Origin: Macrocystis pyrifera
Lineage: Eukaryota; Sar; Phaeophyceae; Laminariales; Laminariaceae
Assembly (NCBI GenBank): GCA_031763025.1
Contig: JASSKH010000005.1
Coordinates: forward strand, 15,032,128-15,096,127
Direction: 5' to 3'
DNA: 64,000 nt
In this document: piece by piece, positions 5,375 through 61,005 of the stretch
Position numbering within the stretch: position 1 is the stretch's first letter
Layout: each line of letters opens with the position of its first letter
The notes under the pieces: model-generated
What the model saw: the letters and a program-made list of their open reading frames with translations, nothing else
Databases searched by the model: none
Told to the model about the DNA's origin: nothing
Program-made: the position numbers and the translations under genes

Positions 5375-5614
5375 CTATTGAGAGGAAGATGGCGCCCACG
5401 AGTCATGCCGTCGAAGCGTCGGTATTGAAGCAGTAGACGGGTCTCCGCTGCTGCCGCCGTGCCCGTTACTCCTCGAACACGACGGCGCCGGTGTGTCCTT
5501 TGAAGTTTTATCCGCGCTTCGGAAAATCCACTCATCGACAATTTTTCGGACTAGGCGGTCAGCGATGAAGGCGGGAACGGGGGTCGCCTTGATCAGCACT
5601 TGCATATCGGTTAC
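5375..5614 (-). CDS. Gene A exon 19: C-terminus
   Basis: 79 codons plus TAG, acceptor GCCCAG|GTA. Encodes VTDMQVLIKATPVPAFIADR and LVRKIVDEWIF, well conserved with B, then a Ser-rich low-complexity end. The last residues (WAPSSSQ) have no counterpart in gene B. Confidence 0.85.
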   Translation of the reverse strand, partial: VTDMQVLIKATPVPAFIADRLVRKIVDEWIFRSADKTSKDTPAPSCSRSNGHGGSSGDPSTASIPTLRRHDSWAPSSSQ

Positions 5615-8600
5615 CTGGGCAGTGATTAGGTTAAGGCGGGAAGGGGAGATGACACACGCACTGGTTCAGATCCCCAGGGACGGCGAAGTGACCCTCGGTA
5701 TGTATCCATTATATCTCGTGCGTGTTGATTTGTCCATACCAGCGAAACGCTCAACCGCCCTCATTGCCTTGTTCCAGTAGACGGCGCACATGATTAAGGA
5801 CACGACGCGTCCATGATTATACCCTACCCCCTCGTTTCCATACAACATAGGTCCCCAACTTGCATCGTGGTGTCAGCTTGAGAGGCCGATGCATTCCATA
5901 AACGAGGTAAATTGTATGTGAGTAGTCTCGCAGGCACAGGGCGGTAAGATCGATAATGCATCTGTTGTGTGAAAATGAATACCAGGGATATGAAGTGGGA
6001 AGAGCGCTGGCCATGGCCTCGTGCTAGATGGAAATGAGAAACAAGCAGATACGTCTTTGGCCTGAATCAACAATCCATACATGGCCCCAGACCGCAGTAT
6101 ACCAGCACTTGAGAGTCAGCACAAGGGCCCTGCGGTCGTGAAATCGAGCACGGCCTCCTAAGGCAGCTGCGTGAAAGGATTTGTGTGATGAAAACGGAGA
6201 CCGGCAGTGAAGGGAAGGGATAAAGGTATGCTGTGGCGGGTGGGAAGTCCGTGCGGCGCTCCCTCAAGCAAGATTCAGCACAAAAAAAATCCCTTCGCCG
6301 TCGCGCGTGTCACGCAGGACATGCTCATAGTAGTACGCAACGCCTAGGAGCAAACGCCATGGGAAGTGAAAGATGGTTTATAACCTGATGCGACCTTTTC
6401 GCGATTGTGATTACCTCTTATAACTGCATCACACCGACTTGGTTTGCGACCCTTATGAATCCAACGTTTGAAAGGGACCTGGATATTTCCTAAACCGACA
6501 GTATTCTCATTGTTTTCGGTCTTTGCTGCAACAAAAAGGTTGATTCATAAGCATGGCACATTGATGTTTTCCTATCGTAACGAACACGAACTATCATTCT
6601 ACTGTGCAAGGCTTCTGTTGGGGAGAGCCCGCCTGTAAGGAATCCCTTCCGGTCCGGCATCTGCCAAAGGTAGTGTCTCTATGGCTCGAACTGCGACCGT
6701 ATTCGCCATTGTCAAATAAGTTGTTCGCGAAATGCAAGTGCTCGCAGATGACACAACAGCATCGTTATGCCGACAACAGGCCGCAACCGATCGGCCGCCA
6801 GGCCGGTAGCAACAACAGCACCAGACAGAACCCTAGTGAACACACCCACCGAGATGTAGCGCGGGCAGTTGAAGGACAAGTGTCTCTTGGACGGCGAGAG
6901 AAATGAACCGCTGGGCCTCTTTATCAACAAAACCGGCCGCCCGTCGACCCCGCAGACGGTGCTCGGTCCCTGGAGGGAGAGCTTGAGGGACGGTCGCTTC
7001 TCGTGACGAGACGCGCCATCCGAAAGCCGCCAACGAACGTAGGCGTTGGTCCATTGCATTCGGGCTTTTCCCATGCACCTTTTTTTCATTCCGTCGTGGA
7101 TGGATAAAAACGGGCGTGTGTGAGAAATGGAGGGGGGGTAGGAAGGTGTAGGGTTGGAAGGGTATCGCGTCATTATTCGTCGATACAGTCCTACAACAGT
7201 ATAGCAGGGATACTAAAAATGGGAGATACAACAAAACAGAATAAAGGGGCGTGATCTGTTTGTCACCGCAACCTGGGATGCATTACAGTAGTATGGAAAA
7301 TGCGAGAAGTGGTAACGCCGTGGCCGTTACACCTCCACACCTTGCTCTACCGAGGGGGCGCCCCACCCACCGGTTCTGGGGGTTCTATTTTCGGCTTTGC
7401 TAAGTGACACAAGCTTTTTGAAGTGGTGTTTCGTGGCACTCACAGAGTCATGCCGACGAACGCGCCGAGGGATTGAAATATGGTGTCTTCGTCCTTCATT
7501 CCCTCCCCAACCACTCGGTAGGCCTGTGAGAGGGGGGGCGGGGGCGGGGGGGGGGTATGGATTGCCGCATTCTAAACGACACCGTGGAAATTAGCTCAAG
7601 AGGTAGTCCTAACGCTTGCTGGAAGAAGAAGGGAAAAAAAACTCGACAGCAAGGGTAGTATAGGCCTATACGCAAGAACTAAATAAACGGCGAGATGGCG
7701 CAACAAGGCATAGTCCGGAGGTGTACCGTTTATCAAACATTGAAGCATCGTTAAGGCTCAGACGAACCACGGCAAAAATCCCAGCACCAGACACGCGCCC
7801 CCAACGAACAACGCCTCGACTTCCCCAGAGACAATGTATGCCATATATAGCTCCTCGATCGACCAGCCACCACCCAAGCTTCCATCACCAAATCATTCCC
7901 CCGCTCCCCCGAGCCCCGTCCCCTAGAAGCAAGCCTTAGGCACGCCACACTCAAGAGTAGCAGCAGCAGCAGCAGCAGCAGCAGCAGACGCTGTAACGCA
8001 CCTCGAGAAGCACGGCGATGACCACGTTAAGTAGAAGAACCACTTCGAGGACCTGATACACGACCACAACTACCGGGCCCACAGAGGGCTGTGCCTCTAG
8101 AATCTGAGAGTAGAATGTCTCATACTCCCCCAGAGTGACGCGAATGACGCTCCGCCACGCCCTCCCCGGCGTGGAAAAGTCATCGGAGCGGGAGCCCACG
8201 AGGAACCAGGTCAGGTTCGTGAACACCAATGCCACCTTGTTCGACGGGGGGGCGCGCGTGATCAGGACCCACGCGGGGAAGCTTAGCACACGGCCCGTGG
8301 CATAACTGCAAAATTATCGGGGACTACGGTATACGGCGATGCCTGTTTCATTTTCCCACAGTAATAGCGAATGTTACAGCTGGTGTCGAACTATTGCATG
8401 TCAGTACGCATTGAGGGTAGGGTGAGTGGAAGGCTATATATGTGTAGTCCATCTGTCGCTGCCTTGTTCTGCGTCTCTCTCTCGGCTCAGCGTTCCGAAA
8501 TATGCACCAAAACGACCACAACACCCTTCAAAACCTACTGTAAGCATTCACTGACCGCCATAACTCTCTGCAATGCCTCGCATGCGATTAGACTTGAACC

Positions 8601-11600
8601 CTAGGCAAGATGCATGGGTTGCGCCCAGGGGTGCTGACGTTTTACCCATAAAACCCCTGTGCGCGTCTTCACTATCAGGGGCGGCGCATGAAGAAGAGGC
8701 GGCCGTTAAAGCGGGATCAACGAGGTGCGGCATAAACAATACGCAAGTCGCCCTGCGGTAGCTCAAGCACGCCTTGCAAGCCGCACTCCTACTGGCCGAG
8801 CGCCATCACGATCGGACGCAAAGAAGCGATTTGTTCCGTGCAAGGTCGTATCGTGAGCGTAGGGCTTAACAAGGCAGACATCATATTGCAGTGGAACGTG
8901 ATATACGTAGCACGGCTTCCTTCTAGCTACGTCTTTCCTTGCGGGACAAGAGATTTCAGAACGGGGGAAATATGCCCAGCTCGCACGCGTATGGGGTTTA
9001 TTCTGCATGTACCCATTCGCATTCGCGCCAACATCATATGATACTCTCTTGTCTGATAATTTGTTCGGCACTTGTCTGCTTGCAGTACGTCGCCCTCACT
9101 CCCCTATCCATGGTTTCTACATCCCATGCTGTAGTTCCAGGTTCCACGAATTATGCGCTCGGATTTCTGTATTTCACCTTCGTCCCTTCACGTTCTTCCA
9201 CAGTTCTGGCTAAACGCCGCGATCTTTGGTCCGTGTGTCTCCCCACTGTTGAAGCGACCACACTTCACTTCTCGCTTCGTCTGCTCGTTTATGCGTTCAA
9301 TTCTACGCCTGCCGGGCCCGCTCTGTAACCTAGCTTCACTCCCCCTCACTCTCCCCATTTTGCCATATGTGTCGTGTTTGCCTGGTGATTGCGTCCTAAC
9401 TACACACAAGAACAATCGCGTTGGCCCGAAAGCAGTGTTTACACCTGTGAACGTAAAACACGCCTCCCCTAACCCACGCGCAACGACTCCATCCTGTTCC
9501 TGCCGTACACCACTGGACTATGAGCTCGAGGGAGGGGGATGAAACAACTCCTTCTACCATCGAAGATATCGGGCACACACGATGCGCACGGACGCTCGGC
9601 ACATCAAACTACCAGGAAGTTGATATATACAGGTGGGATAAATAAAGAGACGCGAACGCCTTGCCCTGGGAGTAGAATACCAAAATCGACCGTAACTCGC
9701 AGAGTGCTTGGGGGCAAGCTCCATGCACACCACTGGGGCCATAGGGGGCACAAAACCGCTTAACTCACCAAGAATTTCACAAAAAGGAAGTGCTGCAGAT
9801 GGGTGCATGCTCCGCTCAGCGTGTCCGCGACGATGCCCATGCGCTTGTGAAATGTCAGCATCTGTGAGCGCGCTCAATTCGTACGTGAGATTTCGGTTGG
9901 CACCACCGAAGTCTGTTCAGCATTTGGATATAAAATTCATGCACCCACGATGGCACGACGCAATAACCAGAGAGGAACACACGAGGTATTAATAGTAAAC
10001 CAACACGAACAAGCCAGACGCTGCCGAGTATGTCTCACCGTTTCCCGACCCGCCATGCCCCGTAGTTAGGCAGCTCGCGCCACCGCGGGACGCGAGAAAA
10101 GCACACGTGTGTTTGCGACATTTGCGCCGGCTGTATTTGTTTTTGCTTCGTTGCGCATTCCGTGCGCCTAGCATACCAAATGGGTACCGGTGGATGAGTT
10201 GGTAGGTGTATCGACCAAGCGCGGGAATATGCGCCCATCAGCACTATACCCGCTGCCCCCTATCATCACGTTTTCGTTCATCATCGCACCCACGCGAAAA
10301 TATATACCGCTCAGCAGAACGGCCTCGGCGGCAGAGAGGAGATGTACGTGATAGCCAAACCTTTCACATGGCCACACCGTTCCTTTTTTTCATGTGAACC
10401 CACCGTGAGTAAGCGAATCCGTAGGTACATGCTACGTGCGTAGTGGAGCTGCGGCTGCTTTCGCGGCATTTACGTCTGAACAACATTTCCCACCTGAAAG
10501 ATCCAGCGGTAAAGTCCGGCCATGGTCGTGAGCAGAAACACGAAGTAATAGATGGACACGAAACGCGCCACTCTGTTGAGGGTCACCACTTCATGGGACA
10601 ACTGTCGTGCGCAGGCACGTTCACCAATGTGCCGAGTCAGTAGGGAAGCGAGGGGGGGGGGGGGCAGGGGCCTTACACGTGAGGCACTGAACATGGCGAT
10701 CTTTGAGCTGATCGATTCATAGGCGTCGATCCACGGAGTTCTTCACTACGTGCATCGGAGGCGGGGAGAAGACGGTGCCAATGTCGTTTCTATCCTCCAG
10801 TGGATGCCTAAAACCTAAGCTTGCGTTTAACATCGTTTTTGACAGAAGGCAATTATGTCCGGAAAGGAGGACTTTTGTCAGAAGTACAGCACCGTCGACA
10901 GTGGCGATTGATCGAACGCTAGGTGCCGCCTTGTCGGCAGGCAGCACTTCTCTGTCCCCGTCGAATAAGCTTGCCGGACACAACCACTACCACGCACACA
11001 TACCATTGGTTAAGCGCATGCTTGCACGTGTGAGTAAGTGCGTACGTTCTACTTACCGAGTCAATGTTCGGCATTTCGGTCATGGAATCATCCCTCTCAA
11101 ATATGGACGTACCGGAAAATCCAATCGTCCACACCTGGTCATGGAGGGCGGGTCGACAGAGCACAAATATGCGACCAGAGAAGCAAACGCTTTTTCAAAA
11201 ATGTTTGGTGGGGTCGCCGTTGATGGGCTTTATACTTGTTCGTATCACAAGAGCATGTCATGGACAAAATACCCCCATCAAGTAGACGTACATAACGCCA
11301 CGGAGTCAAAAGCAACGACGAGGCCGCAGGGCAGAGGTCGGGGCGCATTCCCTTCGTCATTGTATCGTTTGGGGCAACATAATATTTCCGGTGTTCATCA
11401 GCGACGACAGAGTTTCACAGATACTACAAAGGGTTTCCACTCCTTGCCAATGCCGCACCCATGATTTGTGTTGCACTGAAACCTGATATATATTAATGAG
11501 CCATTCGCTCAATCGTGATCCAGACAACCTTCGGCACTGATAGCTTTCTCTTGACGTGTTGACTCCATGCGAAATTTGCCACATATATTCCCTACCTCTG

Positions 11601-14600
11601 TCTATCCCACCCATCTGCTAAAATTACGATGTAGATTTCACTACTGGCTGTTAAGACAGGTGGTGGATCGTCTAAACGACCAAAACCAAACACGCGAACG
11701 CACTCCTAGACCAACGGACGGGCCTCCAACTCATTCGGCGAGCGACGAAAAAAAGGCGTGAAATCCGAGTGACACCGGCTTTTTTTTTTTCCCTGCAGAC
11801 TAGCAAATTCGACGAATGTTTACCGCTGGGATGCACATGACGACAGTCGAACAGGGCGAATGAGGGCGACAACGCCTCTACTTACCAACCATAGCAACAT
11901 GTTGACGAACATCAGGCCAAAAAATGTGAACCCACACACGCAGTTCCAGCAGTTTCCTGGCGCCGGAGGGGTACCAATCATCGGAGAAGGGGTTGGGGGT
12001 GTTCAGCGCGGCGTTTTTGTCGGGATCAGCGACTGCTTGACCCTGCGGGTATTATACGAAAAGGAGGTACTCGGCGAAGTGGCGGTGACGAGGTTCTGTT
12101 GTTTTTCGGGGGGTGCAGTAAAGGGAGGGAAAGGTGGTCCTCAGAACGTGAAGATAACTTCTTTTTTTTTCATTAAAACGAAGGACATGTAACCGCTGGG
12201 ACGGCCGTTACGTGTCGCTTCAACGAAAATAAGACATCGCCTCAGAGTTAAGCGCGCGCATGCCGTCGCTCGTACCACCCACTCGCGGGGGCACGCCGCC
12301 ACACATGTATCTACCCGTTCGACCAAGCGACATACAACGCCGTTCCAAAGTAGGACTTTCACCCGTGCGCTTGGCCTTGGAGCGCCTCAGATGCCACCAC
12401 TTATTCATGTCGTGCCGCAGCATCCCGACGAATAAGCCCACGAAAAGCACGAGCGAGGCCCACCTCCGCCTGCATGCATGCGTGCGTGCGTGCGCCCGTG
12501 TTGGCAGAGCCGGGGCATGTTAAACCCAACGGTGGATACCAGGTCCCACATGTCAGGTCGCAGGTGTAGGTAACACATGCCGGCGGTAAGAAGGCGAGGA
12601 CTGTATCCTGCAAAGCACCACGTGAAAATGTTCCAAATAGGGTGATCTATTAATAGCGAAGCTTAACGGCCGCTTATTTACCTGTAGCTCGACCCTTCGG
12701 TATCTCTCTTCAAGGAGTACGCTGATATGCTCTCCGAAACGGTTACTTTGCCTCCTGCGGTAGTATATAAAACGCCCGTTCACACGGGGTGGACACGGGG
12801 GTTTGAACAAGTAAGGGTGGAGAGGACGAAGGGAAGGGGGGGGGGAGTGGCAGGGGCGTGGAATATTCAACGCTTTGATCCGGTCTCTAGCCATGAGATA
12901 AGACTATCAATGCCAGGACTGCAAAGCGATCAAACCCGGCAACGACAAGATGTTTTCGAAACGACTTTTGCCAGTTCCACCGTCTGCATTGTTCATCGGG
13001 CAACGTGTCGAGTCGATGTGTACGCCATCTTCACATCAACAAATACATACGACAAACAACCGTACCATAGCAGACTCCAAACCTATCCCAAAAACAAGTC
13101 ACGCCAGAGAAAAAGCAACGTACACCAGGCTTCGCCACACAGGTACCATCTTCAAAGCTGAAGTCGACGGAAATGGAGCCGAAGGCCGACTTCTGGTGCC
13201 CATTGTACGTCACAAGCTGGACCGACACCGACTTGACTTCTTCTGGAGGAATTATGTCCAGGTCCTCCATCACCAAAAGGGTGCACAAACCCCTGTTCAG
13301 CTGTTGCGGTGGAGTGTAGGGAGGGGCGGTGATTGCGCCAAGAGTGTCAATGCACCGATGACAAAGGCAAGGCGAAGGGTTGGAGGGTACCACAAGCTTC
13401 GGGGTGCGCGAAAACCAAAGCAATATTTGGTACACACACTTTGCGCTGATAAGCGCCCTCCACCCCCCCGGCCCGGTCAAAGACAATGTCAACGACACAA
13501 GTCGATCAGCGTAGCCAGGAGCCGTGCAGTTTTTAGGGGAGTATAAGACAACACGAAAACACACGGCGACCGGCTTCATGCTAACGTGGTCTCCGCTTGT
13601 GGTAGGCTTTCGCGCTCAAAAGGTACACGTGGCTGCTGTGGTTTTCCGTACATTATGACAAGAATCTTTTGTAAACGGCAGCCGGATAAACTCCAGACAT
13701 GGTACAGTACTGCCATTGACCGGAGGATGATATCAAAGACGTATACACATCTATTTATATATGTATCCCACAGGAAATAGGGGATGCGTCCAATATTTTC
13801 GCACCTAATCTCCGTCCTTTCCCCCTTCGTGCTTGGTGGTACGCTCGAAAAACAATATTTGAGGCAAACCGACCCAAGCAGCGACTGATTTTCCCGTGAA
13901 ATGGGACTCACCCCCGTATTGTAGCGCCCGGTGTCGATCAGGATGGGGTAGCCCTTAGCGACTAGGCAGTGCGCGAATTCAATTTACAAGAGGCAGTAAC
14001 GAGCGCGACACCAAGCACGAGAGACGCAGCAGCATTAACCGCAGAATCAAGAGCCGCAACATAAGCAGCAGCTACAACAAAAGCAGTAGCAGCGATAGCA
14101 GCAGCAGGAGGAACAGTGGTAAGAGCAATAACAATTCAGTAAAACTAACAGCCACAACAACAACGCAAACACAACGACACAACAGCAACAACAACGCAAC
14201 AGCAACAACGACGACGACAACAGCAACAACACCGGAAGAAACATCAGCACCGGCATCATCAGCATAAGCAGAGAAAAAAGCAGTAGAAACTGCAGCACCG
14301 TCAGCGGCGACCGTATCAGCACCAACGCAAGTCGCAGTAGCAGAAGCAAGAGCAGCGGCGGTCGTCACTGAGCGAAGGAGATAGCGAGGGTGACAGGATA
14401 GCATATCGCGCCCATGATCAACCGGGGAAAGCGAACAGCTTCCATCGGCGACAGGCGAGCGTGAAATGGCATAATCGTGTGGGATTCACACCCCGTCAGT
14501 AGGTCATTTTCAGTGGTGCAGTACTACATTGCGGGAAAGCAAGGGGAAGAAATAGGTCGCAACCTCGAATTACCAGTTAGCGTAACGGCGAACGGAAGCA

Positions 14601-17600
14601 AATAGAGGCCCGCAACCCCCAAAACATTGGTTAGCACGATGCACACGCCTGTTCATTCAATACACACGTATCACGCAGGAACGATTAGCATAGTTGGCGC
14701 GTACACCAGACCTTGAGTCGCAAAATGTCTTCGATTTCCTGCCGCCTTGATTGCTGTCAGTGCCCTTCACTCGCGTCTCCGGCATGGGGCGTATAGTCAA
14801 GTTTGGCGTCTAAGGAAGGCCTGGTACGCGTCAGTCATTTGACCAGGTGTCGAGCAGATGCTACGCTGATTAAACATGCCGGTGCATCCGGGGCTCCTCG
14901 CCTCGATTGCGAGCCTCTTTCACTGCAATAGTTTTCTTTAAGAGGAGACATGGAGCTTAAACTCTCGGCGACAGGCGTTTGAACATCGGCCTTGCCCGCG
15001 TCCATCTGTAAGGTCTTGTCCGCGCCCATCCAACCCAAACAGCAAAGCCTGAGGCAGGACTGATGACGACAGAACCGTTGCTGAAGTACAGTGTTTGGTT
15101 GACAACAACCGTCGTTCTTTGCGGTGGATCTGATCCGATGCTGCGATGGGCGTTGGCTCTGTGTGGCTGAGGGCCAGTCAGTGTGTGGCGCAGTAACCAT
15201 CGCCATATCAATACAACTCGTTCGAGAGAGGGGAAGTATACAATGAATCGCGTGGCTGGATTACCACCTATCATGGTCACCGACGTCGTGCACGCTTATA
15301 GGGCAGGCACCCCCTCGCTCCCCGGTTACAATAAACAGCACGCGAACCCAGCGCTTACCCTCGATGTAGACAACTTCGTTGTCTGGTCGAAGCTCCGCCC
15401 AAGCTCCCGCCGGAATGATAGTTTCCTTGTCTTCTTTGTCTGCCAGGCAGACATCGAAGAAGTCACGCGACGCCTGACATCTCTCCTCCGACAGGCGCAT
15501 CCGTCGCGTGAACGTCACCTGCCGGTGCCAGACATGTTAGAAGACGCACATCGTGCATCCAAACCGATCTTGAGAAGCGTTGTTTGCGAGGGTGATTGCA
15601 AGCGTTCACGCACTAAAGGCAAAGGCCTAGCGATTCGCGAACTGCTCTTGAAGATCCATGGAGAGACTACTGAAGATTTATCACACATGTTGAGGGGAAC
15701 CTAGGCCCTCGTCTTCGTATACCACTGTTGCAGAAGCGTGTAATACGTAATATTTAGACGTTAAGTCGGGACGGCCCTTTATACACCTGGTGCTTTGGTA
15801 GGATATATTTGCATGTGTTCCAGGCGTTGCATTTTCTTAGGTTTGCTTGGCCAGCAACGTCTACGGATTCACCATCAAGTACATTGGGAGGATTGGGGGG
15901 AAATGACTAAAGGGGCGGCAGCACCAAACATAGTGAGAGGTTAGTAGCCGCTCATGCCTGCTCTCTGCAAGACTGACAGGTCCGGCGAAGGAATTCGTTA
16001 CCTTTCAAGGTGGATGAATGACGAAGCAGCACCTGCTCCAATCGCCAGTTTACATCAGTGGCTGATAAGAGTTAAGAATCCTCAGAATACGTTATACCTC
16101 AAAAAACACCAGCGAACGAGAAACCTTCGCTGGCATGCGCTTGCTTGCGAGCTTGAAGAGGTGGATGCTCTCCTGTTGCTGGGAAGAGTATTCAGCTGAT
16201 CCGCTCAGAGACGTGCCAACTAGCATGGAGGCTGCCTGCACTGAAGGGGCCCGCATTGCCGTATGGTGGCCGGGGTCGGCAGGCGACGGGGAAGGTGGAA
16301 GGGCCCTGGGGTGTCTTGCAGCGATGTGTGGTATCGTGACAACAACGTTAACCCTGAGAACGCAAACTCACCAGCATCCCGCCGATGACTCTATTCCGAT
16401 CTGCCACGAGCGCCATTGTGTTGAAGAGCAACTGCGAAAAGGGAGATTGCAGCACAAGTGTGATGCAGAACACAGGATACAGTGCGGCGGAGGGCGGGGG
16501 GATCGAGCGCGAGGGAACCGATAGTGTTATCGCTGTGTTCGTTTTTATGTGTGAGATGTGAGCGCCTACGAAACGCCCATAAGACACTAACAGCTGCTGC
16601 TCAGACAAAAAATAATCGTACATCGCCACCGCACCACTACCCCACCACTACGAAACACGGTATCGATATTTCGTTTTTAGGTGGTCTCGCTAGTAGGTCA
16701 GCTCCACCATCATCCTGAGTCTACAAACCAAGTCCGGGCGGGAGGAACTACGAGTGTGCTTGACCTGAGTAATAGGTTTTCACGCGCATACTCGGTCAGT
16801 ATGCCACAGCAGTGGTGCATACCCTGAGCACCAACGAAACAGAGACAGGGAAATCCACCATCCAAGGTCAAACCGATCGGGCCTAAGCCCTTCCCCCTTT
16901 TCCAGTTTTACACTACCTGAGTCGTCGCCGCTCTCGAAAGGAAGGAAACAACTATGTTTCATAAAGCGCAAACAACACTCGGAACCGTCTGGCAGTCAAA
17001 TGTAAGTGATCGAGCTCTAACGAAGGTGTTGTGACCCCCTGCACCGCTATTATGCAAATGGCGTAGGGTGGCATCTAGCGCAAGACCTGGCTCGAGGAAC
17101 CGGGGTGGGGCGGTCTGTCGAGTCAGCATACTCTTGTGTTGTCGGTGCGGGCGGAGAGGGCGATAGCGGAACAACCATAAAACTTGGGGGTTCACTCACA
17201 GGAAGATTGGCCCTATAACGGGCGACGTTTGTCGTAACTCCCACAGTCGCGTCGAAGTTGCTGCACTGGGTGACCTGTCAGGAGGTGGAAACGATCAGGG
17301 GCAAGCGCGCCGAGCGTGCGTTCTGGGCGTCTAACGGAAACCGACACGACGTGTGGGATAGAGCAGGTCATGTAGGATGGGTTGCCGTCCAGACATTGGG
17401 GATCTGATTTCTCGTTGTACTCGGGAACTCAACGTAGTTCACATTTTTTCCATATCACGTCACTGCCGGCACCTGCCGGACGAATAAACAGCCTTGATTG
17501 AGTGTTGAACACGAATCCTCTACGGTTTGACAAACGATATCGGCGCGTCGTCGGCTAGGCTTTTGTCACGGACAGCCGCGCCCTCGGAGTGTGCTGGGAT

Positions 17601-26341: not shown

Positions 26342-26390
<49 letters not shown>

Positions 26391-26909: not shown

Positions 26910-26951
<42 letters not shown>

Positions 26952-27915: not shown

Positions 27916-27968
27916 GGCAATTCCACCAGAAGAACATGGATGGCGCGTTTCTCTCGCTCACTGAAGCA

Positions 27969-33825: not shown

Positions 33826-34041
33826 AGAGTCACGCTGCCTGAGCATCGGGATCGATCCCGTGGACGCATCCCCGCTACCGCTACTGAGTCCATATCCCAT
33901 CGAATACGACACCGTCGCTTTTTCCGTCGAAAGTTTCTCCTGGCTTCGGAAAATCCACTCGAAAACAATTTTTCGCATGAGGCGGCGGGCGACGAAAGGG
34001 GGGACTGGGGCCGCCTCGATTAACGCTTGCATTTCGATCAC
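33820..34041 (-). CDS. Gene B exon 19: C-terminus
   Basis: 73 codons plus TGA, acceptor TTCAG|GTG. Encodes VIEMQALIEAAPVPPFVARR and LMRKIVFEWIF, then a Ser/Gly-rich end closing in RQRDSL. The stop falls within the last bases of a 122-bp tandem duplication, where homology with gene A ends. Confidence 0.85.
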   Translation of the reverse strand: MIEMQALIEAAPVPPFVARRLMRKIVFEWIFRSQEKLSTEKATVSYSMGYGLSSGSGDASTGSIPMLRQRDSL

Positions 34042-47900: not shown

Positions 47901-50900
47901 TAACCTATTCCGTTGAAGGGAACCTATCCCAAACGGTGTTGCAGGAGGCGGGGGGGGGGGGGGAGACAGGGAATAGTGCGGCCACCGTGCGGGAGAGAAA
48001 CCTTTCAGTGTTATGTTTTTATTTCCTCCTCGTTTCGTGTGTGGCATACGAGAGGACGCACAAGGGCAAAGCGAAACCAACAGAAGCTACGCAGATGAAT
48101 GTGAAAGGCTAACGCCACGAACCAACAGAGCGAAAGGAAATTGGAGATGCCTCGTCCCGCCAGCCTGAATCGACGCAAGATACATCAAAAGTAGCGTTTG
48201 GACGCCCAAAGTGCCGTGGAAATGGACCATGTGGAGAATTATTCGAGAGAGTAGCACCAATGCACAAACCCTCTCCCAGTAAGCGACGGTGGTGTCCACT
48301 TTTGAAAAATATAGAAGGCGAGAGTAGCACAAATAAACAGCACAGGCACCAGCTGTGTGCACGAAAGACTATTTAACATCCAATACATTAGTCGGGCTAT
48401 TGATAGCAACTACTAAACAACAAGAAACGCTAGCTGGACGAAGACCGACGCGGGCAACCTTCCCGTCGGTATCATCAGAACCCAGCCTGATTTCAACGGC
48501 GGTCACCATGTTAGCCTATCGCAGCTCGTAAATTAATCCCCTACAGCGGTCGAGCCAGTCAAACTCGACCCTGTTGCCCCAGCCCTAGCCCTCCCGCCCT
48601 CTCCCCCGCCTCATCCTCTCAAGACACAATGGCTCAAAATGATCAAGCATAGCGGAACTTGAAAATGTCTGGCATCCAAACGGAAGTGACCGAGCGGAAA
48701 CGACGGTGTTGCTACACCTGGTTCTGTTACAACCAACGCCCCTGTGGGATGATATTCTAGCACAAGATGACGCCTGGGGGGGGGCGGGGCGGGCAAGGGC
48801 GGGGGACGTAGGTGCCGATAGATGGCTGCAGACGAAGTCGTTGTGGGGGGGAGAAGGATAACCTTATTCGGCAATCAGTTAGCGCGTGTGTTAGGCGTGC
48901 GGGAGAGGTTTCATCAAAGACGCGACTCGGTACTTCTCCGTTTGCGTGTCTCAATCCCGTCCCCTCTTATCTCCTCTAACTGCTCCGTCATCAATAGTAT
49001 GAGTTCACTTGCCCCAAGGTCGGCGTTGAAGCGGGCAAAGTTTTCCGTCATACCCACATCCACCGCGATATTGGTGCACTGGCTAGCCTGCGAGAAAGAG
49101 CAGAAACGAAAGCGAGGACGTACGCGTGGCGTGTGGGAGATCCGTCTCGTAGGCGGGGCGAAACGACCAGTGGGAAAAGCGCATGTTCTATTAAACAGGA
49201 GGCTTTCTCATCTAGGGATGGGGGACTCTCTATTTATAAGCCTTTCCATTCGGCTGCGTTAGTCCACGCTTATATTCCCAAGTGAATGTCGTCCCCGCGC
49301 GGACATGGGAGCAAGAACGAACGCTACGTAAAATCTGGCGAATTCGACAATCGTCTTCGCGTGCTTCCCATATTGGATAACCGCAAGCAGCCGTGTCCTC
49401 ACAGCTTTGAGGAGGCGCTGCGGAGGAAACGCACAGGAGAAATGTACGCCGTGTAGTGGTGTTGAGATACCACACGCAGTGGCTATGGCTAATTTGAATG
49501 GAACTCATCTTGCTGCGTCCCTATACCCCCCCCCGTTCGAATCGAAACCCCTCCTCCTGACACCAGCAGCAGCGTTTAAAGCTCGCTCCCTCCCACTTCC
49601 CGATGTCTCCGGTGTGATCGTCGCTCAGACCTGGGTCGTCATCCACCGGCGTCAATCGGCGACATACGTCCCCGATCATACGCAACAATAATAAACACGC
49701 TGTAGTTTATGCTACTCCCCCCGCTCATCGAAATACCTCTGTCCGCGATGCAGAGAAAACTGTGGTCTTCGGATCAAAATCGGTGAAATGACAAAACGAA
49801 ATGACGCTATGGAGACCCTTCGTTGCTTCCAAAGAAAAGCGGCGTTGCGTCCAGAGAATACGGCGGGAAATCACAAATCAAAAGTTCTACGCACATTATC
49901 GATAACCACGTGGCCCGCGGCAGCCGTGACACCCCCCGCCGGCTCGAGAATGAGAGCACTGAGCGCAGAGGTGTTAAGAGTCGGCTCGTTCGAGGCATTC
50001 AAGGCGGGGGGAGCCGAAGATGACGCCGAAGACAAATCGTCAAGCGTGTCACCCTGCTCTGGGTGCGGTGGTGTCGCGGATGGAGCATCAAGGGAGGCGG
50101 CGCAGATTTCCAGGTAGCGGCCTGTGCAGAGGCGCCCTAGCTAGAAGATGTTGAACGTCAAAAGGCACAGCGAAAGGAGGATGTAGTGGGGGTTGTCATG
50201 TGCACAAGAAGTAGTGCATTGCGAGTATCGGAAGGCGGAGCCTTGTTGGCCGAGCGGTGCTCGCCGTAGTTCCATCGGGACCCGTGCACACTCACGCCTA
50301 ATGTTTCACCTTCACCCCGTGCGGGCAGACCATACGTAGCTGACAAGCGTGTAGCACACGACTACGAGGATGGAAACCGGATACTTGGTATCCGGTACTC
50401 AGCGAACTATTCACAAGCTGCTGGCATCGCACAGTGTGATAACGGCGGAGACGGAATCAACCAGACCTTTACGGGTTGCAGATATATAAAAACGTGGAGG
50501 AAAACGACACCGCGGGGCACGCCGGCAAAGCGGAACAACACCTGGCAGGTTAGTATGATAGTCTCCAGTGCTGGATCTTGGAAGCGTTGATACTCTCCAT
50601 CACACCACTTTTGAGACTGCGTGTGTTAACGCGGAGCCTTTATTGCCCCACGAAGTAGACAGACGCCTACCGACAAAACACTGGCCAAGGAGTGGACATC
50701 GCGTCACGAACACAAAAAAAAAACGTGGGAGTGTGTGTGAACATCAGACACATTGTATCACCTCGGCGTGACCCCCTGGTGCCTACCACAGCGCACGGCG
50801 TACCCCACGCGCTGGATACCACCTGCATGCTCATCGTTGCTCAAATTGTGTAGTTCGAGCACTGAGATAAGGCACGAACCATAGCTGCCAGTGTACATCC

Positions 50901-53900
50901 ATGACCTGTAAACCATGAGGTTTTACTTGTGCTTTCGAGGCATGGTGGTGCTTCTCGTGAAGAATACACTCATCCACTGGGAACAGCCTATGCTCTTGTA
51001 GTTGCGGGGGTTTGCTTTGCCCGCGGTCGGCTCTTGTCGGCCATCAGCGGTTCCAAATGATTATTGCGTGTTGCAATTCGTCGCTGAGTTACAACACCTG
51101 AAGACACCGACGACATCGGCCGCGAGCACTTCAACTATTGATATTGTAGAAATCAGGAGCTTATACTTCGTACACATTGAGTAGAGAGACACGGACGATC
51201 TACGGCAGCGTGAATGTCGCCTCGCATGCAGCCAAATCTACGTATTAAAACCCCCTGAGGACACACGTGAACCCATGGTAGCACTGTGTTTCCGATCAGT
51301 AACTCGCAGCTCCACTGCTACACATGATAGTTCGATTCCATCGCATACCTTCGTTGCTCAAACACCCCAACCAACCGGCCGCCTTCTTCCCTCCCAAATA
51401 TTTTTTCCATCAAGGGCATGAAGAGGAATCAGACACCGAGCACACACTGCCCATAGTCTGTAGAGCCGCACCGGAGGGTGTGAAACGGTGAGAGCGCGCG
51501 TCCAACCTCCGACCCTCGCCTGGCCTGTGTACTGTTCTCCCGCGACTTACCTTCCCGTTTGCTTGCCGTATCGTGCCGTGATTCATGCCGCGTATTCTTC
51601 CACGTCATGAGCCCGACGACGAACAGGCTTTTCTGTTCCATAGGTGAAACCTCCAGCAACAGTATCGGCAGTACGCACTATAAGAGTATGTGGGAATTCG
51701 TTCGTGTACCCCCGGCTTCTCGCGACAAGAGCGGCTCGACTTTGTTATCGTGTTCGCTGTCAATATTCGCTCATGAATCGACACAAGGTCACAGCACACT
51801 TTCCCTCTTCCCGCATATTTTCTGTAGCTTTGCCAGGTGACTGACATTTACGGATGACACGGTTCGAAGTATACTCGTATCTACGTCGCCCCACCCTTCC
51901 CCCCCCCATTCGCAAGAAGGCTAACTGAAGAAAGACACTTACCACACACGCTCCACATTCTTCGGATAGACCCAAACTGCTGGCGCTGCTGCTGCTGCTG
52001 CTGCTGCTGCTGTCATGTACGGTCTCTGCGCGTCTTCTGGCCTGCTTATCAAAAGTAGAGTCACCGCCGTTGACCCACGGGGACGGATCGACATTTGTCT
52101 CGTCGTAAAGGTCGAAGTCACAGGCGTTGCAGACATCGTCTGGAGGTTTCACGGCGCACACCGTGCACCGATCTTCCAGCTGTGTTCCGTGGTAGGTCTT
52201 GAGGTAAAAGGCCTGAAAACCCGCCACAAAGAGAACAAAAGGGGGAGAACATTCACAAGCATCACTGAAACCCCCGGGCGCAAGGCAAGTAGAACGTGTA
52301 AATCTTATCGGCGGCGGCGGGCGGCGGCGTGGAGGAAGCGACACCGTGGCGCTGAAAGTCAACATGATTACTAAAACAATACAGACACACGTAGAGCAAC
52401 CCAGCTCGATTTTTACATATTGTTCGGCGATGAAAACACTAGACTGATTTCAGCATTCCACTCGTGAGCTCTAAGACGCGATGTTGATAACAATTATACA
52501 CTATTAATAGACTGATTTCAGTATTCCACTCGCGAACCCTAAGGCGCAATTTTGATAACAATTGTAAACTGCAATAAGCCCAGTGCACAATCCCGTAACG
52601 CTAGATATATAACCCTCGAAATCGATAATCGAATTTCGATCGAATCCAACGATACAAGGTAGCTATTTACATTTGAGATGCTCCATCGGTATGAAGCGTT
52701 TGAGTTATACCATCATCCAGTAAAAACTTTGCCGTAGCATCGCTCGTTCGTGCTCTTCCCGCCACTGCAGCTTTGTTCTCGCCGATTGATCGTGCCTTAC
52801 CTCAGTATTAGACAGCCACCGCGCAAGTACGCTGCGTGATACCACTTTTTTGTCTCGACTATGCACGTCTCTTGGGTGTTAATTTTCACACGGGCACTTT
52901 TTTCCTGGAGAAACATCGAGGCAGCCTACAAACCTCCGCCTCCCCTGCGATCGATCAACAACGGCAACGAGGGGCGATTTTCTAGCGAAACCAACGCTGG
53001 AGGCGCAAATGAATATTGACTGTTTGTTTGCCTCCATTGGTTTCAACTCGATCTACAAAGGGGAGCACAGCACAAAACACAACGTTGATTAAACTACGGT
53101 AACACACCTGCATCCATTGGTAGACGTCCGAGAGAGAAGTGACGTCCATGTGGGTCCTGTCCTTCTCCGGTCCATACCTTGCCTGGTTTGCGCCGGAACG
53201 AAGCAAGAACGGGATCAGTGGAGAGAGGTAAAAGTACCTCGCTTTTCCAAATGTGTTCGTCATTAGAAAATCGACAACTACGGCACTGCACAAGGAACAG
53301 TTTCAGCACATATCCAGTTGCCCTATCTGGCCAGAACAATTATCAAGCAACTATCAGATATATCGAAAATGTGAGCAGGTTCCGCGCGTTTCTAACGAAC
53401 TGAAAACGAGCCGAAAAAACCCTCTTTGTGCCCATGAAAGACCGCTGAGTATATACATGCAGTCAGCCTATCGCGAGAACTCCGGTACACAATCCCCATA
53501 CCGGGGGCCCGGAATATGGCCTCGTTTGCGCGTCAGGAAACGACTGGGCGGGAGTAATGTAATGCCCTCGGTAGTCGTTTGAGCCGTGACTACCCCAGTG
53601 TTCGGTCATCGCTTTCGTCGCCCATCCTAGGGTGTGGGGGCACCTGTGGCAAACACCCCCAGCCTTAGAAAATGCGTCCTTTCTCTTAGCGTTTTCCCCC
53701 GAAAAAAGGCCATGTGAACAACCCAATAAAACGCTACCATAAATCTATCGATGACGCTAACGGCGAGTGAAAACGTACGATGTGCGTTGACTGCGCACGT
53801 GTAGCTTGCCGCGCTGAGGTCGGGCTCGTTTGCCGTGGTCGTCGCGCTCGTTCTGCCTACGACAAACATGGGAAACGGCGCGCCTCTTCTTGAAGTGAAA

Positions 53901-56900
53901 CGCGGCGTCCATGGACCGTCGTCCTAACTACCCCAATGTCACTACCTGCGTCACGGACGACACGACGGCTTAATACAGTGTGCGCTGACCCCAACCGGAA
54001 TCTTTGACCGCCGGAACACTGCACCGACCTCCGCCTGCAACGGCAATAACATGCACAGCAACAGACACAGCGACAACGACCCACAGCTACGTTGACGGCT
54101 CCAATCCAGCCACCAAATAACAACGAGCTTCAACGTCTCGCGTTGTCCTGCCGCCTCCTCAACCACCCATCGAAAACCAGCACCAGCAGCAACCAGAACA
54201 TAACAAGTATATACTGCTGTCGCCGCACATGGCCGTCAGCGTACTATATATCTGACGCCAGATATACACTCAGTCTATTGTGCAACCCCATATGAATATG
54301 TTGAAAGTTACTGCCGAAACTATTTGGTGTATCCCCCTGCGATACCCGTCCCCCGTTTGACACATGCCAATATGATCACGAAACGCCTAGGATACAACGC
54401 CCAATACGTAAACAATAGAGACCAGGTGTCCGGTACTGTCGCAACTCAAGACTTTAGTTAGCCTCTCGACCTGCGAGACACTCGGTATAGCCTCTCACAA
54501 GCGCAAGGTGGTCCCTCAATCCCTGTTGCACGGAGCGCTGGAACGCCACGTCCGCGCCGCCGAAGACAAGGGAAAAGTACAGCCCGAAGAACACCAAGAA
54601 CAGGGCCAGTCTTCGAAACCCGTGCGCGTTGGCGTGCAAGGCCCGTATCGTCCTCTCCGCCTCTCGTGCGGGCAGGTGGCGCATTCGGTCCCGGAGGCGG
54701 TACCCGCGAAATGCGGCCTTGCGCGAGATGATCATCCGCGCGATAAGGGGGAGAGGGTGGGATCGGGGTTAGGGGTGGTGAAGCGTTGGTTTTGTTTTGG
54801 CGGATTTAGTCAATTTTTCGCGATGCTGCGATTCTCGGAGATCATGACCGTATATGGGTGCGAGTCGAACGGTACACCGGACACTATCAAAGTGGATAAA
54901 GAATGTCTCGGGGGTGCGCCTCAGAGCGGCAAGTCTCGGGCTGCAGAGCAAAAGGGAGTGCAAGATGGATCGATGTTTCAATACACGCCTGGCTATTTGT
55001 TCTGCGGGTACAACATTTCCTTCGCAGGACCACACAAGAGTAGTATTTAAAAAATAACTAATTACCATCGCCGAATACTGTTTAACGTGTTTACACCTGA
55101 GGATAACATATCTGCTGTGTATCCACCGCCGCTTCCCACGTGGGTGTATGGGTTCTCGCCGGAGCTTCCACGAGGGAACACGCGAGCCGCCTTGAGTTCC
55201 CCGAGACCACCTTCGTTAGTTCCCGTGAGCTTCCGGGAGTCTTGCAAATGCCCACATGAGTTTCCACGATAGCCCGCGTCAGTTCCCGCGATTTCGCACG
55301 CGAGTTTCGCGAGTCCGCGTTGGTTCGGCGGGTATTCATAGCTCCCAGGCGAGATACCACGCGAGTGCCCGCGAGTTACCATGAATCTCGATGAACGCCC
55401 GCGTCAGTTCTTGTGAGCGCCCGCGCAGTTCTCACGAAGGACCCAAGACTACTCGCGGGGGCTCGGGCGGGTACTCGCGGAAACTCGCGTGGGAACGTCT
55501 GAAAACGTACTCACGGAACTGATACGGCCGCCCGCGGGAAATCGTCTAGGCACCCGAGAGGTTCGTGAGGGACCTGCCTGATGCGGACGCTCACGGGAAC
55601 TCGCGTCTACGCTTAGGACTTGCGTGGGCAGTCACGGGGTTTGCGTGGCGACTCGCGGACGACGCGGGCGCTCGCGAGAACTCGTGCGGGTACTCTCGGA
55701 ACTTGTGAGAGAACTCGCGGGTACCGGTTCGGGCGTTCGCCGGAATTCGCGTCGAAACTACGACAATTCGCGTGGGAAATCGCGGGAACTCTTGCGGTCG
55801 CGGCAGGAACTCGCGTGGAAACTAGTGCGAGTCTGAATAAAAAATCTTCGGCAAATGAAGACGATTCGAGTTGGAACTCGCGGGAACTGACGCAGGCGTT
55901 TACGAGACCTCGCGTGGGCACTCGCGGGACCTCGCGTGAGCACTTGCGGAACTCGGGTGGGAACTAGCGAGAGATGACGCGGGTGGTGCAATCTTGCGTG
56001 GGCGCTTGGGACAACTCGCGTGGGCACTCGCGGGACTCAACTGGAAATTAGGACTACCCGCGGAAAAGACGAAGGGCACACGAGAGAGCTCGGTACTTGC
56101 TGTAACTCGGGTAATCTCGAGCGGCCACGCGAAGAAGTTCGCATGGGCCCCAGGACCACTCGCGGGGCTGATACGGACCTTCGCGGGAATTGGTGTGGGT
56201 GCCCGCGGTAGCATGCAGGAACATGCAGGAATGCACTGGAAACTCGCGGAAATGAATGGCGAAATTTCGCACTCCAGACGTTCGTATTAAGTATTTGTGT
56301 ATTGTAAGAGGCTAAGACTAGCCGTACACAATATTGTTGGCCCCTCTAATTTGCGGGGTCCTCAAGACTTCCCTATTGGCCCCACTTGGGTTCTGACATG
56401 GGCCTCCATGGGAAACTGTGCGATAATTTCCATGATATCTCGCGGACTCCCGCAGCACCTCAGTTGGGATGTCGCTGGCTCCCGTGAGATCCCATGGTAT
56501 CCCACTTGAGATGTCGCGGGTCCCCGCATGGGATGCTATGCGATACCGCGGGGTCTCGTGATATCACACTTGGGACCCCGCGGAAGCCCGCGGGAGCTCG
56601 CGGGACTTCCCGCGACTACCCACGCAAAAGCCCAACAATGGGAATCGTTGTTGCGTTCGCAATCATTGTAGTGGTGAGTGGTTGAAATGGTGTTTGCCCA
56701 CACGCTCAAAAATCGACGGCAATCCTAGCCAGAAACCGTATAGCACGCCAGAAGACGTGTTGCCCTCCGGGGATGCCTTTCCTGGCCGATTTCCTCGGAA
56801 ACGAAGGTGGAACGCACAACCAAAATGGGGATTTTGGAAATATTCCGCCGGTATTTTCCATCTAAGCGCATCGCTGGGAGTGTGCAATGTCCCCTGCTGT

Positions 56901-59900: not shown

Positions 59901-61005
59901 AGTATAACCGCATTCAATTTTCTCATTTTCCTGTCATTTACTCTTACAGTGGGCTCCTTTACCTGTGTTCTGGTGGAAGGCAAGATTCTGTTTTCAGCGT
60001 CAAAAGTCGACTTCATGTATTAGTGCATATCTGTTCGAGATAAAATCCGATTGCGAAACGGTTTTTCACGTTCGATTACCTGGTACTTTCCGGATAGACT
60101 GGCAGTACCGGTATATTTGTTGCAGGTGAAGGGCTGCGGGGATGTTGTCGCAAAGATAGGCAACAAAAAACTAGAAAATACATTCTGTACTACTGCAGCG
60201 TGTGAGACCGCTGTGAAGCATATCGATCCCCACACAATAACGCCTTTTTTCTCCGTGATAAATATCACGGCATGAATATGGGCGTGAAGATTTCTCTGCC
60301 ACATACCTGCTGCACTGTCGCGTCGCGTGAACATTGGGGTATTTTACCTAAGGTTTCTGCAGTCTGATATATCGAGTTGTCAAACTCTAAGCACTCTGCG
60401 CCATGCTGCGTGCTTGCAGTGCTGTTCGTGGCTACGAATAAATACCTACAGCAATTATTCAGCACATATAGAATATATATATATATATATATATATCTCC
60501 GTCTGCGAGGAGCAAAATGTGCATGAGATCACGAATGGGATCATGCTTGATGCACGAATTCAGTAAACCATAGCAGTGCAGTCTCAGAAAAGCCCTTGGG
60601 CGTGGTGTTGTTGCAGTTGTCTGCGCTGCTCGATGACAGTGAAGACATAGAGCGTTACGATGTCGTTGCAATTCTACACGATATATACTCCGTGTAAAGG
60701 ACGAAATACCACCAGTCGTCAGTGCATGCAGCGCGTCGCACCTGCGTGAGTATCGCAGCAGCGACCGTAGGGTCCAGATCGTTCGGCAACGGAGCGATGT
60801 TCGTCATCTTCGAGCCGTTGTCATCGTCCTCGGCGTGACCTAACCGGCGGCTGCTACCACCACCACTACCGCCATGGTCTTTCGTTTCGCCCGCAGTGTA
60901 GCGGCGCCGCCCCTCCCCCTCGAGCGTGTCTCCGTCTCCATCGCCACTATCAGCACCAGCAATGCTCGAGAAGCCCGAATCGTCGCGGAGGCCCCAATGG
61001 AACAT
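33820..61005 (-). CDS. Gene B: PKD2-like (polycystin/TRPP) cation channel, 19 exons, spliced
   Basis: Tandem paralogue of gene A, predicted 929 aa. The 19 exons total 2790 nt, stay in frame throughout and end in TGA. Domains: IQ-like motif ~87-102; S1 ~125-147; polycystin/TOP domain ~170-548 with a nine-Cys insertion; S2 to S4 ~551-638; S5 ~664-689; filter LGE at 708-710; S6 ~726-749; tail 752-929 with no EF-hand loop. Every intron position and phase equals gene A; only exons 1, 4, 5, 12, 18 and 19 differ in length. The function expected from the family is a tetrameric, Ca-permeable cation channel; heteromers with gene A are possible but inferred. Gene B keeps a cleaner N-terminus (start ATG in frame) but has a GC donor after exon 6 and a shortened C-terminus abutting a tandem duplication. 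Introns hold only repeats. Confidence 0.85.
34475..34709 (-). CDS. Gene B exon 18: cytosolic tail
   Basis: 235 nt, acceptor ACAAG|G, donor ACG|GTGGGT. Encodes CMWKARIQWANTYVRWRL, a basic stretch and GVDGRPVLMIRRP. Two codons longer than gene A. Confidence 0.75.
35186..35265 (-). CDS. Gene B exon 17: post-S6 segment
   Basis: 80 nt, acceptor CACAG, donor CTCT|GTAAGT. Encodes AYRGVAGGMKDEDTILESLI, then AFVGMT. Confidence 0.85.
36250..36287. repeat. CAG/CTG microsatellite next to exon 16 donor, gene B
   Basis: About twelve CAG units (one CAA) starting 9 nt from the exon edge. Confidence 0.95.
36296..36529 (-). CDS. Gene B exon 16: S5 end, pore (LGE) and S6
   Basis: 78 codons, acceptor AACAAG|GTG, donor GAG|GTGCGT. 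Encodes VMMVFTNLTWFLVG, THFSTAGEAW, SVVRVSLGEYENFY, QPTVGP and S6 ending LLLNVVIAVLLE. Same acceptor and donor strings as gene A and the same CTG tract right after the donor. Confidence 0.95.
37815..37907 (-). CDS. Gene B exon 15: S4-S5 linker and S5 start
   Basis: 31 codons, acceptor CCCAG, donor CTG|GTGAGC. Encodes ILTFHKRMSIVADTLSRASI and HLSHFLFVFFL. Confidence 0.9.
38902..38930. repeat. C29 homopolymer in gene B intron 14
   Basis: 29 consecutive C on the + strand, about 100 bp past the exon 14 donor. Confidence 0.9.
39036..39143 (-). CDS. Gene B exon 14: S4
   Basis: 36 codons, acceptor GCAAAG|GTG (AAG site), donor CAG|GTGCGA. Encodes VAQEVVALHNVAPF and S4 (VSTYYFVFVLTTMVGLYRWI, then FQ). 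Confidence 0.9.
40908..40978 (-). CDS. Gene B exon 13: S3
   Basis: 71 nt, acceptor ACCAG, donor TTG|GTAAGT. Encodes NRCHCVCGFTFFVLMVLTIV and LWL. Confidence 0.85.
41653..41753 (-). CDS. Gene B exon 12: S2
   Basis: 101 nt, acceptor ACGCAG, donor AAGC|GTAAGC. Encodes S2 (VSMLLFVCMLFGMM) and WHDTRKWWRLRRSKAKR. Six nt shorter than gene A because of the donor position. Confidence 0.85.
42630..42702 (-). CDS. Gene B exon 11: end of TOP domain, pre-S2
   Basis: 73 nt, acceptor CCCAG|GA, donor ACAG|GTACGC. Encodes GGKVAVKETISTYAVKSRLV, then LSGDR. It lies in a longer open frame whose remainder is intron read-through. Confidence 0.8.
43240..43393 (-). CDS. Gene B exon 10: TOP core, LVTYN and FEDG strands
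   Basis: 154 nt, acceptor CAACAG, donor GATG|GTGGGA. Contains ALLVMEDLDVIPRDE, LVTYNGNQKSAYGS and VSVDFYFEDG. Confidence 0.9.
44052..44101 (-). CDS. Gene B exon 9: TOP core micro-exon
   Basis: 50 nt, phase 1 in and 0 out, acceptor CTCAG, donor GGG|GTGAGT. Encodes AGGYVLMLDTGGFNAG, aligned with exon 9 of gene A. Confidence 0.85.
46422..46600. repeat. GGT/GTC-rich tract in gene B intron 8
   Basis: About 180 bp of GGTGGT, GGTCGTCGT and GGCGGT triplets. The matching intron of gene A holds a CAG/CAA tract instead. Confidence 0.9.
46949..47108 (-). CDS. Gene B exon 8: TOP core, RRMRV..C
   Basis: 53 codons plus one base, acceptor GGTAG, donor GAGG|GTGAGG. Starts VKFARRMRVPEESC and contains KETIIPAGAW. 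Confidence 0.9.
47864..47923 (-). CDS. Gene B exon 7: polycystin domain, RNRVIGGML
   Basis: 20 codons, acceptor GATAG, donor CTG|GTGAGT. Encodes VPFNGIGYVANRNRVIGGML. Confidence 0.85.
49013..49087 (-). CDS. Gene B exon 6: polycystin domain, GC donor
   Basis: 25 codons, acceptor CGCAG, encoding ASQCTNIAVDVG...ARFNADLG. At the place where gene A has GTGAGT the donor reads GCAAGT, so this intron appears to be of the GC-AG class. Confidence 0.75.
49895..50140 (-). CDS. Gene B exon 5: variable extracellular linker
   Basis: 82 codons, acceptor TTCTAG|CTA, donor AAT|GTGCGT. Begins LGRLCTGRYLEICAASL and ends GGVTAAAGHVVIDN. The middle is Ala/Ser/Pro-rich, diverged from gene A, with possible N-glycosylation sites (NAS, NTS). 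Confidence 0.8.
51943..52212 (-). CDS. Gene B exon 4: Cys-rich and poly-Ser insertion
   Basis: 90 codons, acceptor TTTTCAG, donor GTG|GTAAGT. Holds C-x2-C-x8-C-x2-C (CTVCAVKPPDDVCNAC), a shorter Ser tract than gene A, and a closing CGAC. Confidence 0.85.
52441..52576. repeat. 68-bp tandem duplication
   Basis: Two copies beginning AGACTGATTTCAG at 52441 and 52509, each ending GATAACAATT, in gene B intron 3. Confidence 0.9.
53108..53182 (-). CDS. Gene B exon 3: start of polycystin domain
   Basis: 25 codons, acceptor ACCAG, donor CAG|GTGTGT. Encodes ARYGPEKDRTHMDVTSL, then SDVYQWMQ, 18 of 25 residues identical to gene A. Confidence 0.85.
54499..54717 (-). CDS. Gene B exon 2: IQ-like helix and S1
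   Basis: 73 codons, acceptor CGCAAG|GCC (an AAG site; gene A uses CAG), donor CTT|GTGAGA. Encodes AAFRGYRLRDRMRHL, RALHANAHGFRR and S1 (LALFLVFFGLYFSLVFGGAD). Confidence 0.85.
55127..56290. repeat. Degenerate minisatellite, unit about GGAACTCGCGTG, flips strand
   Basis: From 55127 to about 55400 the word reads GAGTTCCCGCGAG. From about 55440 to 56260 it reads GGAACTCGCGTGGG on the same strand, so the array is inverted near 55.42 kb. Lies in gene B intron 1. Confidence 0.85.
56340..56640. repeat. Second degenerate repeat, CCCGCATGGGATG-type words
   Basis: Imperfect copies of TGGGATGTCGCGG / CCCGCGGGAGCTCG words, adjacent to but different from the preceding array. Confidence 0.6.
57313..57898 (-). 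mobile_element. Dispersed G/C-bounded repeat, complete 586-bp copy (gene B intron 1)
   Basis: Bounded by GGGGGGGTATACT on the left and GAGTACATCCCCCC on the right (imperfect inverted ends). A block like TCATGCATGGCCGTAGTCGT lies near both ends. The interior matches 25.26-25.79 kb in reverse complement. No conserved open frame, so probably non-autonomous. Confidence 0.8.
57910..57973. mobile_element. Short 64-bp relative of the G/C-bounded repeat
   Basis: GGGGGGGTGTACT ... AGTACACCTACCCCCCC enclosing only the block AAGGTCATACGACTACGCGG and its neighbour. Looks like a solo or internally deleted form. Confidence 0.75.
57979..57999. mobile_element. MITE left-end fragment
   Basis: ATTACGGGGGAACATAG only, with no matching right end nearby. 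Confidence 0.6.
58479..58584. mobile_element. ~106-bp MITE, copy in gene B intron 1
   Basis: TATTGGGGGACCATAGTAAA at the left (two bases of the TIR lost) and GGACCCCCGTAATA at the right. Confidence 0.9.
58829..58880. repeat. Short tandem duplication
   Basis: CACCATTCGAAGGAAGTAAA and CGCCATTCGAAGGAAGTAAA, each followed by an A run. Confidence 0.85.
59139..59251. mobile_element. ~113-bp MITE, decayed copy in gene B intron 1
   Basis: TATTGCGAGGGTCCATCCATAG at the left and GTGTTCACCCGTAACA at the right, with a well-preserved core. Confidence 0.85.
60473..60496. repeat. (AT)n tract in gene B intron 1
   Basis: About 12 AT units, 250 bp inside the intron from exon 1. Confidence 0.9.
60742..61005 (-). 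CDS. Gene B exon 1: N-terminus, acidic/Gly-rich, ends in ILTQ
   Basis: 88 codons from the ATG at 61005 (ATGTTCCATTGG; gene A has ATGTTCTTCTGG at 27937) to the donor CAG|GTGCGA. Rich in Asp, Gly and Ser, ending NDLDPTVAAAILTQ. A CT-rich tract lies upstream, either 5'UTR or the acceptor of an unseen leader exon. Joining to exon 2 over a 6-kb intron is inferred from the paralogue and phase. Confidence 0.65.

Follow-up and report, generated by a model that had tools for sequence, protein, structure and literature searches.

The 64,000-nucleotide stretch of Macrocystis pyrifera contig JASSKH010000005.1 analysed here (the window; 52% G+C) contains two tandem genes, A and B, both on the minus strand, which very probably encode polycystin-2-like cation channels. 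Gene A occupies positions 27915-5375 (22.5 kb including the stop codon) and gene B positions 61005-33820 (27.2 kb including the stop codon); the sizes of 22.5 and 27.2 kb given in a first-pass annotation of this DNA were reproduced by the rebuilt gene ends. Both genes are joined-exon models built from genomic sequence. Open reading frames (ORFs) of at least 20 residues from the window were compared with one another to find homologous segments, and this comparison yielded a collinear chain of minus-strand protein matches linking 5.4–22.3 kb with 33.8–54.8 kb. Acceptor and donor sites were listed for each matched pair of segments and the phase-concordant ones were kept as exon borders. Exon 1 was located via a conserved 42-base stretch with a donor at its end (27747-27706 in A, 60780-60739 in B). 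The exon coordinates of both genes, obtained from this splice-signal border search on homologous segments, are given below with lengths in nucleotides (nt); S1–S6 are the membrane helices. The coordinates of the LGE filter and the CxxC pairs were counted by hand and are approximate.

Gene A:
Exon 1 (as modelled), 27709..27915, minus strand, 207 nt; start uncertain, B-like ATG at 27937 in another frame
Exon 2, 22106..22324, minus strand, 219 nt; IQ-like motif, S1
Exon 3, 21074..21148, minus strand, 75 nt
Exon 4, 20162..20491, minus strand, 330 nt; S1–S2 loop, CxxC pairs at ~20399-20446, poly-Ser
Exon 5, 18050..18298, minus strand, 249 nt; S1–S2 loop insert
Exon 6, 17200..17274, minus strand, 75 nt
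Exon 7, 16372..16431, minus strand, 60 nt
Exon 8, 15359..15518, minus strand, 160 nt
Exon 9, 13912..13961, minus strand, 50 nt
Exon 10, 13147..13300, minus strand, 154 nt
Exon 11, 12682..12754, minus strand, 73 nt
Exon 12, 12363..12469, minus strand, 107 nt; S2
Exon 13, 11886..11956, minus strand, 71 nt; S3
Exon 14, 10494..10601, minus strand, 108 nt; S4
Exon 15, 9769..9861, minus strand, 93 nt; S4–S5 linker, start of S5
Exon 16, 8002..8235, minus strand, 234 nt; S5, pore (LGE filter at ~8125-8133), S6
Exon 17, 7444..7523, minus strand, 80 nt
Exon 18, 6850..7078, minus strand, 229 nt
Exon 19, 5375..5614, minus strand, 237 nt coding plus stop

Gene B:
Exon 1, 60742..61005, minus strand, 264 nt; start ATG, N-terminus, first part of IQ-like motif
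Exon 2, 54499..54717, minus strand, 219 nt; remainder of IQ-like motif, S1
Exon 3, 53108..53182, minus strand, 75 nt
Exon 4, 51943..52212, minus strand, 270 nt; S1–S2 loop, Cys-rich and poly-Ser insert
Exon 5, 49895..50140, minus strand, 246 nt; S1–S2 loop insert
Exon 6, 49013..49087, minus strand, 75 nt; followed by the GC-AG intron (donor GCAAGT)
Exon 7, 47864..47923, minus strand, 60 nt
Exon 8, 46949..47108, minus strand, 160 nt
Exon 9, 44052..44101, minus strand, 50 nt
Exon 10, 43240..43393, minus strand, 154 nt
Exon 11, 42630..42702, minus strand, 73 nt
Exon 12, 41653..41753, minus strand, 101 nt; S2
Exon 13, 40908..40978, minus strand, 71 nt; S3
Exon 14, 39036..39143, minus strand, 108 nt; S4
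Exon 15, 37815..37907, minus strand, 93 nt; S4–S5 linker, start of S5
Exon 16, 36296..36529, minus strand, 234 nt; S5, pore (LGE filter at ~36419-36427), S6
Exon 17, 35186..35265, minus strand, 80 nt
Exon 18, 34475..34709, minus strand, 235 nt
Exon 19, 33820..34041, minus strand, 219 nt coding plus stop

Each gene has 19 exons. Exon lengths are identical in 13 of the 19 pairs (exons 1, 4, 5, 12, 18 and 19 differ), and the intron phase is the same at all 18 introns. The joined coding sequences without the stop codon comprise 2811 nt (937 residues) in A and 2787 nt (929 residues) in B, and neither contains an internal stop codon. The splice sites are GT-AG in 18/18 introns of A and in 17/18 introns of B; the remaining one, intron 6 of B, is GC-AG with the donor GCAAGT, the donor of its A counterpart being GTGAGT. 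This confirms the 19-exon tandem pair proposed by the first-pass annotation, together with the exon lengths, phases and open frames that it had listed: the tandem polycystin-like pair is real and well preserved. A protein search with both products (E≤1e-3) found no third copy in the window. An additional homologous segment (A ~14865-14828, B ~44314-44277) was considered as an exon between exons 8 and 9 and dropped, since it is out of phase with both flanking exons, and exons 8 and 9 join directly in phase. Immediately downstream of gene B lie two 122-bp copies (33582-33824, 95% matching) that overlap its stop codon.

The proteins are 62% identical. Nonsynonymous (dN) and synonymous (dS) divergence was computed from alignment column 70 onward by three methods: NG86 gave dN 0.228, dS 0.742 and dN/dS 0.307; YN00 gave 0.223, 0.901 and 0.248; and LWL85 gave 0.234, 0.706 and 0.331. 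Taken together, dS of 0.71–0.90, dN/dS of 0.25–0.33 and the protein identity indicate that the duplication is old, being neither a recent event nor a pair of alleles, and that both copies are under purifying selection; the earlier statement that the duplication is not recent thus holds. A regional breakdown covers four of the six regions, and a per-exon NG86 table takes in 13 of the 19 exons, the others being too short. Per-exon dN/dS ranges from 0.14 in exon 10 to 0.62 in exon 1, where the model is uncertain. The lowest values belong to exon 10, which lies in the loop, to the S1 exon (0.18) and to the S4–S6 exons (0.18–0.20, with 0.19 for the pore exon); higher ones are seen in the loop insert (0.34–0.37) and the C-terminal exons (0.32–0.33).

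The introns had been described as almost wholly diverged, and similarity at blastn E≤0.01 was indeed found in only 5 of the 18 intron pairs. The four matches listed for intron 1 represent a shared repeat family of ~110 bp, those in intron 4 are two of 28–29 bp, and that in intron 7 is 22 bp long and lies at the 3' splice site. Two further islands are located in intron 6 (A 16987-17031, B 48667-48711; 45 bp, 80% identity) and intron 8 (A ~14826-14872, B ~44273-44319; 47 bp, 79% identity). Reading them as in-frame exons was rejected: the intron 6 island gave candidates in A and none in B, and the intron 8 island, candidates in B and none in A. No Rfam match was obtained at E≤5 for the A intron 6 or the B intron 8 island, and a gathering-level Rfam scan of the whole window, which provides the sole coverage of the B intron 6 and A intron 8 islands, was empty. 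The ~110-bp repeat has inverted ends (TACGGGGG..CCATAGT ... ACTATGG..CCCCCGTA) and occurs at 23.5–29.7 kb and 58.4–64.0 kb; its core has 12 matches in the window with at most two mismatches (0.13 expected), each lying within intron 1 of one of the two genes or upstream of it. It looks like a family of miniature inverted-repeat transposable elements. Related translations (≤91% identity over 23 residues) are also found at 2735-3049, past the 3' terminus of gene A, and at 57713-57898 in intron 1 of B, and possibly represent a repeat.

Elsewhere in the window, a degenerate tandem array of more than 1 kb with 11/22/33-bp units (CCCACGGACACC-like) covers 540-1663, and a GGT-type trinucleotide array of ~1.2 kb, open in several frames, lies between genes A and B at 30621-31837. 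A tRNA scan of the window was empty, and ten other open frames, out of 75 frames of at least 125 residues, had no Pfam match at E≤0.1.

The assignment to a channel family was made by profile searches and by comparison with chains of solved structures. The first-pass annotation had suggested a Pfam search, in which both joined proteins matched PKD_channel (PF08016) above the cut-off of 22.4 bits (A, 41.5 bits, E 1.3e-10; B, 40.5 bits, E 2.8e-10), the matches spanning just profile positions 110/111-223 of 225. This profile outscores Ion_trans in both proteins (41.5 vs 20.2 bits in A, 40.5 vs 31.7 bits in B), and PKD_channel, Ion_trans and IQ are the only Pfam families matching them at E≤1. Among these chains, to which the second comparison was limited and in which the transient receptor potential (TRP) comparators are animal proteins, without protist TRPP, the nearest were PKD2L1 and PKD2 (E 3.2e-11 to 6.1e-08). 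These were followed by the TRPV channel Inactive (0.0027), Nav (0.006) and TRPC6 (0.27), and no mucolipin chain was found at E≤1. Within this set of chains, PKD2 thus appears nearer to the pair than any other TRP type does. Hydropathy in 19-residue windows identified S1–S6 in B and S1 and S3–S6 in A, arranged in the order typical of the family, with a long loop after the first hydrophobic segment in both. An LGE filter is located between S5 and S6 in both copies and aligns with the LGD of PKD2 and PKD2L1. The PKD2/TRPP assignment, which rests on S4–S6, is supported at the level of sequence comparison by the PKD_channel matches above the cut-off in both proteins and by PKD2L1 and PKD2 being the nearest structures. 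Relatives were found neither in viral contigs (queried with a peptide of 60 residues from one exon, with exon 16 extended by one codon, and with an alignment) nor in prokaryote genome contigs, collections in which a eukaryotic gene is not expected.

Several observations weigh against this assignment. The S1–S2 loop of neither copy matches the Pfam polycystin domain, and its local profile comparison is no better than shuffles (72/300 as good); the S2–S3 region gives no signal against PKD2 and PKD2L1 either (176/300 shuffles as good). S2 of A falls under the hydropathy threshold, and B has two additional hydrophobic stretches inside the loop. Hence, of the polycystin order of parts proposed earlier, the S4–S6 block and the LGE pore stand, whereas the "TOP domain" label of the loop appears to be positional only, with marginal or absent similarity. 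The motif TQAAFRGYRLR, identical in A and B, lies directly before S1 and spans the exon 1/2 junction; it is called IQ-like only, since the IQ profile (PF00612) scores 15.2 and 16 bits, below the Pfam cut-off of 20.3. Both loop inserts contain a conserved C-x2-C-x8-C-x2-C, then a poly-serine stretch and then another CxxC. Animal PKD2 has a C-terminal EF-hand, which is not required across the wider family. The regions following S6 (182 and 178 residues) match no Pfam family at E≤10, EF-hand included, and therefore the pair was not classified as an animal-type PKD2 orthologue. Finally, the first exon of copy A may be frame-shifted. A B-like start at 27937 is out of frame with the conserved exon end, its frame stopping at 27785, and the N-terminus from the modelled start at 27915 has no detectable similarity to B until its last residues. 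In a shuffle test against B the score was reached by 39/1000 shuffles for the alternative frame and 689/1000 for the model frame. This may reflect a real loss of frame, an assembly error or translation starting from the inner ATG at 27915. The earlier description of both copies as intact therefore holds as regards frames without stops; exon 1 of A is not securely intact.

The explanation that we consider highly probable is an old same-strand tandem duplication that produced two paralogues, the product of each being one subunit of a six-helix cation channel of polycystin-2-like (TRPP) type. The unmatched loop would also fit a pair outside the PKD2 branch, either of a different group-2 TRP type (mucolipin-like) or of a protist TRP class of its own; in passages of PMC11085791 diatom TRPs form clades apart from the animal classes, and protist TRPPs are missing from our animal comparison set. 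Such an origin is nevertheless unlikely, given the PKD2L1/PKD2 matches with no mucolipin chain at E≤1 among the solved structures and the lead of PKD_channel over Ion_trans in both proteins. The first exon of A, whose N-terminal frame is unlike B while the alternative frame matches weakly, might mean that A is a pseudogene in decay that can still be read because its loss of constraint is recent. We give this little credence, as its 18 other exons are open with conserved splice signals and phases, and pairwise dN/dS of 0.25–0.33 would be low if one of the copies had long evolved neutrally.

The adjacency of A and B on one strand, with the same exon structure, could also suggest halves of one larger two-repeat (12-helix) gene, like a two-pore channel. 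Each unit, however, has its own stop codon at the homologous place and its own first exon, making this very improbable. The same adjacency and structure would arise if two alleles of one gene had been placed side by side in the assembly, but 62% protein identity, dS of 0.71–0.90 and mostly unalignable introns are far beyond allelic divergence, and the chance of such an artefact is negligible.

Under the duplication reading, purifying selection has retained both copies since the duplication. By analogy with the family, the subunits would form tetramers, made up of four A, of four B or of both kinds; the S1–S2 loop may fold into an outer lid above the pore, the acidic LGE filter would pass cations including Ca2+, and feedback could come from calmodulin, or a Ca2+ sensor like it, bound at the IQ-like motif. 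A more elaborate proposal, doubtful in our view, is a distinct protist polycystin subtype with a calmodulin-type sensor before S1, a metal- or disulphide-stabilised loop insert (CxxC-x8-CxxC plus CxxC), co-assembling tandem products and intronic islands tuning splicing.

The pair is an ordinary tandem gene duplication within a widespread channel family. With it the polycystin family gains two well-resolved paralogues, apparently outside animals, whose intron positions and phases were kept exactly while intron sequence was lost, and the pair allows a direct comparison of which channel parts are constrained. The general view of the family stays as it was. TRP expansion in brown algae and oomycete polycystins have already been published. 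A literature search made without the organism name met no description of this pair, a weak negative.

The S4–S6 block is homologous to that of animal PKD2/PKD2L1 (26% of 116 aligned columns are identical with PKD2), and A has DDFST ahead of the pore (THFST in B) and both an acidic L-G-D/E filter. Unlike the animal proteins with LGD, the filter here is L-G-E; the loop, unrecognised by the Pfam polycystin profile, has a Cys-/Ser-rich insert, an IQ-like motif precedes S1, and the C-terminal region lacks a Pfam family. In brown algae, polycystin-related PKD/REJ-like proteins of Ectocarpus are mentioned in parts of PMC3879662 and PMC4700764, where the one protein treated in detail, Esi0130_0068, has an extracellular part with REJ and GPS domains; A and B matched neither domain at E≤1. 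The oomycete PKDRR channels, as presented in sections of PMC7399828, are stramenopile members of the PKD family that combine PKD-type pores with ryanodine-receptor R domains and have LGA or AG(D/E) filters. The pair shares the PKD-type pore with them and differs in its LGE filter and in having no Pfam match at E≤1 besides PKD_channel, Ion_trans and IQ. The TRP family is greatly expanded in brown algae, with 51 members in Sargassum fusiforme according to portions of PMC11085791, the main text of which contains neither "PKD" nor "polycystin"; tandem duplications like that of A and B are events through which such an expansion would arise.

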